Origin: Bacteroidota bacterium
GTDB lineage: Bacteria; Bacteroidota; Bacteroidia; J057; JAJTIE01
Assembly: GCA_021300195.1 (NCBI GenBank)
Contig: JAJTIE010000043.1
Coordinates: 1 to 37,776, forward strand
Direction of reading: 5' to 3'
Length of the DNA stretch: 37,776 nt
Shown: positions 10,647-15,791 of the stretch, piece after piece
Layout of the letters: each line of letters starts with the position of its first letter
Position numbering within the stretch: the first letter of the stretch is position 1
The notes under the pieces: model-generated
What the model saw: only the letters and a program-made list of their open reading frames with translations
Databases searched by the model: none
What the model was told of the DNA's origin: nothing
Made by a program: the position numbers and the translations under genes

Positions 10647-11153
10647 TCAGGAGGGGGTTTTGCCAACCTTCATCTGCTTGCTCTCGGGCGCGTGGGCTAC
10701 CAGCTGCTGCTGGTTGTCCAGCACCTCTTGCAGCACCTTTAGCACATCGGGGCCGGGTTCGTTGTGGTTCAGTTTTTCCAGGGTCAGGGCTTCTATCATG
10801 GATCGGAAGCCAAATTGTAGCTGCAGCCGGCGCAGGTACTTCTCGTAGCGCAGCATGATCCAGGCCTCCAGGGTACGCTCTATGCGGGTGGCCCAGGGGG
10901 CGGGCAGCAGGGCGGTGCACCAGCCGAAGAGGTGGCCAAAGTAGTAGAACCAGCGTGCGTACCAGATGGGGCGGCTGCGGCGGCGGCGCAGCAGGTCGTT
11001 CAGGAAGGCCGTGTGCTGGGCCTTTCGCTCGCGCAGCAGGCGTATGCGGTCTCCCCCGCTGTGCACCTGGCGGTACCAGCCCAGGCGCATACTCTCGCGG
11101 GCGTGCAGGTCTCGCAGCAGGCGGCGGGTGGTGCGGGCGAAGTTCTTTTTCAT
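10647..11153 (-). CDS. Coq7-like ferritin-fold protein with altered iron ligands
   Basis: 168 residues that align by eye along their length with the Coq7 (demethoxyubiquinone hydroxylase) family. Helix 1 HARES (family HAGE) keeps E20. Helix 2 RERKAQHTAFL has H47 but K44 where the diiron ligand Glu of ExxH should be. The RPIWYARWFYYFGHLFGWCTALL hairpin matches the membrane-contact region of the family. Helix 3 LEAWIMLRY keeps E96. Helix 4 has LEKLNH (E126, H130) with one residue too many for ExxH. Either it binds iron differently or it has lost catalysis. Bacteroidota normally use menaquinone, so a ubiquinone role is unlikely. Its ATG overlaps the stop of the GbsR-type regulator gene by 4 bases, indicating one operon. 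A longer overlapping frame (10603-11184) is a shadow. Confidence 0.55.
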   Translation of the reverse strand: MKKNFARTTRRLLRDLHARESMRLGWYRQVHSGGDRIRLLRERKAQHTAFLNDLLRRRRSRPIWYARWFYYFGHLFGWCTALLPAPWATRIERTLEAWIMLRYEKYLRRLQLQFGFRSMIEALTLEKLNHNEPGPDVLKVLQEVLDNQQQLVAHAPESKQMKVGKTPS

Positions 11154-11701
11154 GAGGGCTTGGCAAATAGGTCCATCCAGCCACTTAGCTGCAGCAGCTG
11201 CCGCTGCCTTAGCAGGGGGAGCAGTCGCTGGGCAATATCTTCAAATAAGCGTAGAAAGTCGCTCATCTGCTGTACATTCTGCACAAACTCAGCCTCCTCT
11301 TGGGTAAGGGGCCGCTGTGCCTCGTCAGCATGGCGGCGCACCTCCTGCTCTATCTGGCTTACACGCCCTATCAGGGGTTGTATCTCGCGCTGGCGGCGCT
11401 CTTCCAGTATGTGGTAGGTCAGCTCCCACACGTCTTTTTGCGCCACGTAGTAGTCTCGCCGCGTGTCGGGCATCTCCACCCGTTCCACAATCTTCCAGTC
11501 CAGCAGCTTGTGCAGGTTTATGTTTGCATTTCCACGGCTGATGGCCAGGGCCTCCATCACGGCATCCGTGTCCAGGGGCTGGGCGCTTACATACAGCAGG
11601 GCATATACCTGCGCCATGGTCTTGCTCACGCCCCAGTGGCCGGCCATCTCGCCCCAGCAGCTTATAAGCTCCTGCTTGCTCTCGTCCAAGGTATCGCCCA
11701 T
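11150..11701 (-). CDS. GbsR/MarR-type transcriptional regulator
   Basis: 183 residues. The N-terminal half matches the GbsR group: EMAGHWGVSKTMAQVYALLY, then the winged helix with MEALAISRGNANINLHKLLD (recognition helix about 50-70) and the wing VERVEMPDTRRDYYVAQKDVW. The C-terminal half is a helical dimerisation and sensing region rich in Glu and Arg. Known GbsR proteins sense choline or glycine betaine and repress osmoprotectant genes; related Bacteroidota proteins have unknown ligands. No osmolyte genes are nearby. It is co-transcribed with the Coq7-like gene (4-base ATGA overlap), which is therefore its most likely target. It diverges from gcvH, with 141 bases between the starts. Confidence 0.85.
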   Translation of the reverse strand: MGDTLDESKQELISCWGEMAGHWGVSKTMAQVYALLYVSAQPLDTDAVMEALAISRGNANINLHKLLDWKIVERVEMPDTRRDYYVAQKDVWELTYHILEERRQREIQPLIGRVSQIEQEVRRHADEAQRPLTQEEAEFVQNVQQMSDFLRLFEDIAQRLLPLLRQRQLLQLSGWMDLFAKPS

Positions 11702-11792
11702 CCCGCGCTAAAGATCGGAATAAATCATTTTCACTAAAATTTGAAAACAAAAAGAAAGGCACTGGCTTCTGTTTTTTTGCGTGCCCAACTCC

Positions 11793-11842: not shown

Positions 11843-12220
11843 ATGAACATCCCAAAGGACCTGCACTATACCAAAGACCATGAATGGGTACGCATAGAGG
11901 GCGATGTAGCCACGATTGGGATTACTGATTTTGCACAGAAGGAGCTGGGCGACATCGTATTTGTGGAAGCAAACACCGTAGGTGAGCACCTGAAGGGGGG
12001 AGAGGTATTTGGCACCGTAGAAGCCGTGAAAACCGTGAGCGACCTGTTTCTGCCCATAGCCGGAGAGATCCTGGAGCTGAACGGGGAGCTGGATGGCAAT
12101 CCGGAGCTGGTAAACACCGATCCCTATGGCAAGGGCTGGATGGTGAAGGTAAAGCTGGCTGCCGGGGCAGACAAAGGCGAACTGCTGGCCGCAGCTGCCT
12201 ACGAGAAGCTGATAGGCTAG
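11843..12220 (+). CDS. gcvH: Glycine cleavage system H protein
   Basis: 125 residues, full length. It carries the lipoyl arm that shuttles the aminomethyl group between P, T and L proteins of the glycine cleavage system in the cytoplasm. The lipoylation site is K63 in [13 protein letters not shown]. Other family marks are [20 protein letters not shown] at the start, the conserved LGDIVFVE strand and the end [13 protein letters not shown]. It is a single-gene transcript: an exact -7 box lies upstream and a strong terminator follows. No gcvT or gcvP gene is in the window. H proteins also serve as lipoate carriers for other complexes, and two such complexes are partly encoded here (sucB and the E1 fusion). 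Confidence 0.97.
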
Positions 12221-14549: not shown

Positions 14550-15122
14550 CTACTCAGCAGCATTCTCGGCCACTTCGGCAGTGGGTGCGCTGGCGGCCTC
14601 TGCCTCATCGGCAGGTGCCTCACCCGTTGCTTCGGCCTCGGCGGCCTTGGCAGCAGCGGCAGCTTCCTTGGCAGCCTCCTCCAGGCGGGCCGATATGGCC
14701 GCTGCACGCTCTTTGCGTTTGGCCTGCTCTTGGGCATGGGCCGCACTGGCTAGCTCCGTCTTGGATTTTTGTATGGCAAACTGGGCCGTTTCCTGCTTCT
14801 TGTCGCGGGTCGTTTTCCAGTCTTGGTAGGCTTTTTCAATCTCTTCAGCCGTCTTGCCCTGCTTATGCAGGTGGTGGCGTAGCAGCACGCCCTCCTCGCT
14901 TAGGATGTTCTTGACCGTATCGGTGGGCTGGGCACCCTGCTGTAGCCACTTTAGGGCTGCTGCAGCGTCCAGCTCGTAGCGGTCAAATTGCTTGTGTGGA
15001 TCGAAGGTGCCCAGTTTCTCAATGAAACGACCATCCCGAGGTGAGCGGGCATCGGCAGCTACGATCCTGAAGAAGGCACGGTGCGTGCGTCCTTGACGTT
15101 GAAGTCTTAGTTTAACAGGCAT
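14550..15122 (-). CDS. rpsP: 30S ribosomal protein S16 with Ala/Glu-rich tail
   Basis: 190 residues. The first 80 or so are S16 (PVKLRLQRQGRTHRAFFRIV, FIEKLGTFDP, LKWLQQGAQPTDTVKNIL). The remaining ~105 residues are a charged, Ala/Glu/Lys-rich helical tail (EEAAKEAAAAAKAAEAEA), an extension often seen in Bacteroidota S16. ATG 15122 is right because an exact -7 box lies 36 bases upstream; the open frame continues to 15752 but those codons lie over the promoter and the divergent gene. First gene of the rpsP-rimM unit. The starts of rpsP and the divergent carbonic-anhydrase-like gene are only 89 bases apart. Confidence 0.96.
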   Translation of the reverse strand: MPVKLRLQRQGRTHRAFFRIVAADARSPRDGRFIEKLGTFDPHKQFDRYELDAAAALKWLQQGAQPTDTVKNILSEEGVLLRHHLHKQGKTAEEIEKAYQDWKTTRDKKQETAQFAIQKSKTELASAAHAQEQAKRKERAAAISARLEEAAKEAAAAAKAAEAEATGEAPADEAEAASAPTAEVAENAAE

Positions 15123-15157
15123 GATAAATAAACAGATTTCGCTAAAAATGCGGAGGG

Positions 15158-15188
15158 CAAAGTTAGGGCTTTTTTGTTTTATCCACAA
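15158..15188 (-). promoter_or_regulatory. rpsP promoter (-33 TTG, N20, -7 TAACTTTG)
   Basis: On the minus strand, TTG (15186-15188), a 20-base spacer, then TAACTTTG (15158-15165), an exact TAnnTTTG. The predicted leader to ATG 15122 is about 30 bases. Confidence 0.75.
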
Positions 15189-15211
15189 TTTGATTTTCAT
15201 AAATTTCAGGG

Positions 15212-15745
15212 ATGAAAGCACTTCTGAAATCTCTGCGCGGGCATAGCCCGCAGGTCCACCCCACGGCCTTTGTAGCAGAAACCGCCGTACTGATTGGCCA
15301 GGTGCAGGTGGGCGAGGGCAGCAGTATCTGGTACAACACCGTGCTGCGTGGCGACGTGAATGCCATACGCGTAGGCGCCCGGAGCAACATACAGGACGGG
15401 GCCGTGGTGCACTGCACCTACCAGCATACCGAAACACACATAGGCGACGAGGTAACCATAGGCCACCTGGCCATGATACACGGCTGCACGATACACAGCC
15501 ATGTACTGGTGGGGATGAGCTGCACCGTGCTGGACCAGGCCGTGATAGAGCCGGACGTGATACTGGGCGCGGGCAGCCTGGTGCTACAGCGCCAGGTGCT
15601 GGAGAGCGGCCACCTGTATGCCGGCAGCCCTGCACGCAAACTGCGCAAGCTAAGTGAAGAACAGATGAAGAGCATCCGCCACTATGCCACTCAGTACCAA
15701 ATGTATACCGATTGGTACCTTTCGGAGCCGAATATTGGCAGTTGA
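15212..15745 (+). CDS. Gamma-carbonic anhydrase-type hexapeptide-repeat protein
   Basis: 177 residues forming a left-handed beta-helix of hexapeptide repeats. Putative metal-binding histidines are H67 (GAVVHCTYQ), H85 (VTIGHLAMIHG) and H90, the HxxxxH spacing of gamma-class carbonic anhydrases. The C-terminal helix (SEEQMKSIRHYATQYQMYTDWY) packs on the trimer. Many such proteins (YrdA, PaaY) are Zn proteins with weak or untested carbonic anhydrase activity, so activity is not certain. It is cytoplasmic. It diverges from rpsP with 89 bases between the start codons. No clear -7 box for this gene was found in that gap. The next gene downstream on the same strand starts 46 bases after its stop. 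Confidence 0.92.
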   Translation: MKALLKSLRGHSPQVHPTAFVAETAVLIGQVQVGEGSSIWYNTVLRGDVNAIRVGARSNIQDGAVVHCTYQHTETHIGDEVTIGHLAMIHGCTIHSHVLVGMSCTVLDQAVIEPDVILGAGSLVLQRQVLESGHLYAGSPARKLRKLSEEQMKSIRHYATQYQMYTDWYLSEPNIGS

Positions 15746-15791
15746 CGCGCATATTGACGGCTCATGCACGTTTTACAGATAGCTTAACCGT

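Follow-up and report, generated by a model that had tools for sequence, protein, structure and literature searches.

The window (the whole 37,776-nucleotide stretch of Bacteroidota DNA that was analysed) carries two overlapping open reading frames (ORFs) on the reverse strand, at positions 11150 to 11701 and 10647 to 11153. The upstream ORF encodes a GbsR/MarR-type regulator of 183 aa, recognised by Pfam, NCBIfam and PDB searches, and the downstream ORF, identified from the ORF list and Pfam, encodes a basic (pI 10.9) Coq7-like protein of 168 aa. The two ORFs share bases 11150 to 11153, with the coq7-like start falling within the final four bases of the gbsR ORF. The four-base overlap given in a preliminary description of this DNA was thus confirmed; that description also spoke of genes "fused in operon", of which the overlap holds and the fusion does not, as these are two separate ORFs. 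A motif scan located a candidate operator, TTTTCA-N8-TGAAAA, at 11728 to 11747, between gbsR and gcvH. The gcvH gene (glycine cleavage H protein, 11843 to 12220) is divergent from gbsR both in the window and in genome G001, and the palindrome-bearing intergenic region is common to both genes. Further along the window, at 14550 to 15752, lies an ORF for ribosomal protein S16 with a long Ala/Glu/Lys-rich C-terminal tail; as listed it has 400 aa, and its start is probably too early.

The Coq7-like protein matched the Pfam family PF03232 (COQ7) with E=1.3e-7 and 31.8 bits, above the cut-off of 23.5, which bears out its earlier assignment to the Coq7 family. An NCBIfam search gave no match up to E=1, and PDB searches with the single protein and with a profile of 15 family members (alignment A1) returned nothing up to E=1. 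An hhalign comparison of the family with Halomonas Coq7 and a stretch of 7SSP fell short of significance (local probability 1.1%, E 0.047). The AlphaFold models were all-helical with mean pLDDT values below 50 (47.6 for the window protein with L016 and 48.4 for window residues 1-155 alone). It had also been proposed that this is a membrane protein, but the maximum Kyte-Doolittle 19-mer average was 0.72, which gives no clear transmembrane segment. The pI ranges from 9.4 to 10.9 over the 22 aligned rows of the family, and this basic character would be compatible with a peripheral location.

A Pfam COQ7 search of 60 relatives gave 15 matches at E<=0.001, including the genome of the window, of which 11 were over and 4 below the cut-off. 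When used as a search profile, A1 matched 18 of the 22 genomes of the order, own genome included (the misses being G006, G007, which is at 56% completeness, G015 and G018), together with all three genomes of another order and 1 of 13 (G335) of a third. The profile matched 18 of 395 genomes in a sample of the class, own included, and 1 of 395, the own genome, in a sample of the phylum; in the latter sample, Pfam COQ7 matched three genomes at E<=0.001, with the own genome alone over the cut-off. A tblastn search of plasmids (E up to 10) yielded three records at E 5-8 and no relative, and none of 15 pattern stretches in viral contigs was confirmed. The coq7 gene is reported in alpha-, beta- and gammaproteobacteria in the excerpted text of PMC5069965, and a literature search found no paper joining COQ7, demethoxyubiquinone and Bacteroidetes. 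In the samples searched, Coq7 is nearly absent around this lineage, and the branch is narrow and well kept where present.

A narrow distribution of this kind, with a single genome of the phylum sample over the COQ7 cut-off, is what might be expected of a degenerate Coq7 that was gained by transfer and has no function. The conservation of the gene makes such an origin very improbable. The dN/dS ratio was 0.26 for the pair G000/G001, of which G000 is the genome of the window, and 0.05 for G003/G009 (where dS was high, 1.68), these being the two genome pairs for which it was computable, as two further pairs gave no dS. Furthermore, 26 residues are invariant across the 22 aligned rows, and the family is present in 18 of the 22 genomes of the order. 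A decayed gene was ruled out by this conservation, and the low dN/dS together with the invariant residues indicates that the altered site described below looks maintained. The tree of the 22 rows left 12 of its 19 inner branches unresolved.

In human COQ7, the site residues are E60, Y67, E90, H93, E142, Y149, E178 and H181, arranged in the motif E-6-Y-22-E-2-H-48-E-6-Y-28-E-2-H, and the solved structure contained no metal, according to excerpts of PMC9774615. The Coq7-like protein has equivalents of Glu60, Tyr67, His93, Glu142 and Tyr149 and, by alignment, of His181, and it keeps the COQ7/CLK-1 demethoxyubiquinone hydroxylase (PF03232; 7SSP) spacings apart from one loop. Residues E20, Y27, K44, H47, E96, R102, Y103, H130, E132 and P133 are invariant in all 22 aligned members. 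Among these are Glu20 (human Glu60; codon at 11094 to 11096, reverse strand, as for the following codons), His47 (human His93; 11013 to 11015), Glu96 (human Glu142; 10866 to 10868) and His130 (aligned with human His181; 10764 to 10766). The spacings E20-6-Y27 and K44-2-H47-48-E96-6-Y103 match the published motif in 22/22 members, such that both site tyrosines are kept as Y27 and Y103, each six residues past a Glu, whereas the loop preceding K44 has 15 to 18 residues instead of 22.

Unlike in COQ7, the position of the bridging Glu90 is occupied by Lys in all 22 members (Lys44; codon at 11022 to 11024, reverse strand), and that of His148 by Arg (R102), also in 22/22. Position 127, aligned with the second bridging glutamate (E178), is Lys in 14 members, Arg in 7 and Pro in the one from G335. 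E20, K44 and E96 are as first described, and the metal site is indeed altered, with Lys in 22/22 at the Glu90 position and Lys/Arg in 21/22 at that of Glu178. Four of the six ligands in the di-iron pattern E, ExxH, E, ExxH are kept, and those at the Glu90 and Glu178 positions are changed. The earlier statement that the protein lacks iron ligands was too strong: in the preferred alignment, E20, H47, E96 and H130 never vary, and neither do the two site tyrosines. Similarly, of the "displaced ExxH" ascribed to helix 4, the histidine (H130) is invariant in 22/22, whereas its E126 varies in the alignment.

As judged from sequence, the helix-4 register is ambiguous. A MAFFT alignment with the 7SSP stretch and Halomonas Coq7 matches K127 to E178 and H130 to H181 by opening a gap of five residues in the loop, and an ungapped alternative places the invariant E132 on E178. 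Both registers keep Lys at the Glu90 position in all 22 members as well as several ligand-type residues. The second register bears on the possibility that a metal-dependent oxygenase persists, in which one or two metals would be held in a rearranged site by E20, H47, E96, H130 and E132, plus D136, and the enzyme would hydroxylate menaquinone or another lipid. The first five of these residues are invariant, D136 is found in 21/22 members with Glu in the remaining one, and E132 in the ungapped register lies at the exact Y-28-E spacing. Set against this are Lys44 at the bridging position and Arg at the His148 position, each in 22/22, and the MAFFT alignment, which leaves E132 outside an ExxH. We consider a rearranged, metal-dependent site of this type unlikely. 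A Lys at the bridging position would disfavour a carboxylate-bridged di-iron centre, and canonical di-iron chemistry in the Coq7-like protein appears unlikely. The pattern of substitutions reads as a conserved charge swap at a Coq7-like metal site instead of decay.

The nearest precedent for a Lys-substituted site is, by analogy, the metal-free R2 protein of class Ie ribonucleotide reductase (the VPK/QSK variants). It is a ferritin-fold protein in which, as in the Coq7-like protein, a metal-binding Glu is changed to Lys with a Tyr nearby, and in the excerpted text of PMC11846895 the ammonium group of the Lys that replaces the ligand Glu occupies the Mn1 position, with no metal seen. The comparison concerns the Lys substitution alone, and no sequence relation between the two proteins is claimed.

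The preliminary description of the upstream gene product as GbsR-type was supported by matches to the NCBIfam CudC model (E=2.4e-13, 50.3 bits) and to PDB entry 1KU9/MJ223 (E=6.2e-13); the Pfam MarR_2 score was 26.1, just below the cut-off of 27. As in the GbsR family (GbsR, OpuAR, CydE, CudC; MJ223, 1KU9), the protein is some 180 aa long and carries a MarR-type region at its N-terminus. It differs from that family in lying far under the CudC equivalog cut-off of 218 and in having neighbours that are not osmolyte or cyd genes. In the excerpted text of PMC6207618, the GbsR-type protein CydE controls the cytochrome bd operon, and the gene neighbourhoods of GbsR in Bacteroidota gave no consistent picture. 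Around ten unlinked gbsR genes inspected here (nine of family f4 and one of f6), no common neighbour function was recognised.

In 8 of 22 genomes, which come from four families (G000, G001, G003, G009, G005, G059, G098 and G131), coq7-like is directly preceded by a co-directional gbsR gene, the two being -4 to +7 bases apart. An obligate operon was rejected, as gbsR is not adjacent to coq7-like in the other 14. Eleven of these 14, all of family f4, carry a GbsR homologue at another locus, and a search of G002 and G008 gave none; in the order as a whole, GbsR homologues were found in 18 of 22 genomes. The proposed link between the regulator and the Coq7-like protein held up, by adjacency in 8/22 genomes and by a palindrome shared in trans in 6 of 11 f4 genomes, as follows.

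The window holds a single copy of TTTCA-N8-TGAAA, compared to none in 100 shuffles. The same palindrome is found at gbsR in 5 of the 8 genomes with the gene pair (G000, G001, G059, G131 and G098, where it sits just within the listed gbsR ORF, the TTG start of which is probably too early) and is absent there in G003, G009 and G005. A matrix built solely from the gbsR sites of families f1 and f46 was applied to the upstream regions of family f4. Upstream of the f4 gbsR, this matrix detects a site at p<=0.003 in 6 of 12 genomes, and in two more at p of about 0.03. Where coq7-like is unlinked, it detects one at -45 to -65 of that gene in 6 of 11 f4 genomes (p 0.0005-0.021), the coq7-like starts of G017, G012 and G016 having been set manually to the family start. 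No full site was found before coq7-like in the remaining 5 f4 genomes or in G002, G008 and G335, i.e., in 8 of the 14 unlinked genomes, and a rescan after correction of the starts in G016 and G002 likewise gave no full site. An earlier matrix that included the f4 gbsR sites gave Fisher p values over the 14 unlinked genomes of 1e-6 (Markov) and 8e-10 (locus windows), to be read with the fact that genomes within one family are not independent.

Each of the six f4 sites falls in a short region (62 to 185 bases) that coq7-like has in common with a divergent amidase/CUB-type gene; this second gene could be the real target. The distance from the site to the coq7-like start is steady (45 to 65 bases), whereas that to the divergent start varies from 9 to 125, which favours coq7-like as the target without proving it.

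Elsewhere in the 22 genomes, the palindrome YTTTCA-N8-TGAAAR occurs 248 times, compared to 126 for a reversed control, and in 19 of them it outnumbers the control (e.g., 6:0 in G000, 7:0 in G001, 16:0 in G003, 11:2 in G012 and 29:5 in G004), the exceptions being G013 (17:52), G008 (6:9) and G002 (3:3). Neighbouring genes were inspected for 73 of the 248 sites, covering G003, G009, G012 and G007 fully, G020 and G016 in part, and mostly a single site in each other genome; 27 of the 73 fall within ORFs. Among these 73 sites, the palindrome was found before genes for MqnC-like proteins in G012 and G021 (410 and 407 bits with the best-fitting model, TIGR03699, slightly under its cut-off of 428), before that for MqnE in G005 (467, compared to a cut-off of 435) and before the nuoF gene in G012. 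Eight of the copies found are the fully symmetric CTTTCA-N8-TGAAAG: one each before mqnE, mqnC-like and nuoF, one before a LepA-like GTPase gene, two flanking a small gene in G012 and two within ORFs. When 30% of G000 was read, no palindromes past the two known ones and no mqn gene were found, and the nuoF found there is without a palindrome. The menaquinone link rests on few genes.

Several other sites were noted in passing. The two palindromes in G012 (L088:5592 and 6156) flank the gene of a small hydrophobic protein that adjoins gbsR and has no Pfam match, and a similar small protein without a Pfam match in G016 has a palindrome upstream (L128:2561). A palindrome precedes the adenosylhomocysteinase gene in G000 (L127:2928, G000:C2), the one site seen in that genome besides that at gbsR, and another in G016 (L096:1501) lies 55 bases before the gene for a protein that is rubrerythrin/VIT1-like by eye.

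In G003 and G009, which belong to family f3, there are 33 sites, 9 of them within ORFs, and TTTTCA-N8-TGAAAA occurs before genes for acyl-CoA dehydrogenase and fatty-acid hydroxylase as identified with Pfam (stretches L129-L152). Further palindromes in these genomes stand before what appear by eye to be lipid-type genes, a pattern suggestive of a regulon for fatty acids under a regulator of its own. A second regulator that reads a similar half-site in f3 is likely, because the palindrome precedes fatty-acid genes there while gbsR in the same genomes lacks it. The palindrome may instead belong to another regulator, such as one for fatty acids, or to the divergent gene in f4; in that case the operon of some families would be all that links GbsR and coq7-like, and the connection with menaquinone would be coincidental. 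The SCP2 gene in G010, which carries one palindrome, and the location of all six f4 sites in a shared divergent promoter region would fit such an explanation as well. It accounts less well for the sites at gbsR itself in f1, f46 and 6 of 12 f4 genomes, a usual place for autoregulation, and for the fully symmetric copies before mqnE, mqnC-like and nuoF and beside the gbsR-adjacent gene of G012. We regard this explanation as unlikely, and with the look-alike sites in f3 and the divergent promoter region in f4, the motif evidence is moderate.

Bacteroidota use menaquinone and are thought to make only this quinone. Unlike COQ7, the Coq7-like protein has a regulator as its partner. The model for ubiquinone hydroxylases (TIGR01988) was over the cut-off in none of the 22 genomes of the order, with weaker matches in all 22. 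The MenD model was likewise over the cut-off in 0/22 genomes, with weak matches in 9 and none at E<=0.001 in G000, which is no sure guide to the pathway in use; futalosine genes were seen in relatives, namely those for MqnE in G005 and MqnC-like proteins in G012 and G021. Literature searches found no paper on GbsR and menaquinone by title and none on regulation or a regulon of the futalosine pathway in Bacteroidetes.

Taken together, these results establish a conserved, metal-site-altered branch of COQ7 that is tied to a GbsR-type regulator. A role in menaquinone handling is the most likely one, with moderate support. The reading that we prefer, and put forward tentatively, is that of a GbsR-controlled, quinone-binding Coq7 homologue without the two irons that serves the menaquinone economy. 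This lineage-specific homologue would keep the helical scaffold of a quinone enzyme, with the bridging glutamates replaced by Lys44 and Lys/Arg127 and His148 replaced by Arg102. The cationic side chains would take up the places of the metals and form pairs with Glu20 and Glu96, so that no di-iron centre forms and the two cationic replacements, set against the two glutamates, leave a neutral core without metal. The positive charge of the protein may hold it at the membrane face, and its ligand would be menaquinone or a precursor, for which it would serve as handler, sensor or metal-independent modifier. The GbsR-type protein would bind TTTCA-N8-TGAAA before its own operon, probably as a repressor, and, where the genes are separated, before coq7-like and some mqnC-like, mqnE or respiratory genes. 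A fuller version, in which Lys44 and Lys/Arg127 stand in for both irons of a metal-free COQ7 branch that acts on or senses menaquinone without di-iron chemistry, and in which GbsR also controls the futalosine pathway, is distinctly doubtful. If true, such a branch would to our knowledge be the second di-iron ferritin-fold family, after that of class Ie R2, to have exchanged its metals for lysine.

If the preferred reading is true, a fold of the ubiquinone pathway has been reused in menaquinone bacteria, and lysines have remade its metal site. It would also provide a candidate regulator for the futalosine pathway of menaquinone synthesis and assign GbsR-type proteins a role in Bacteroidota.
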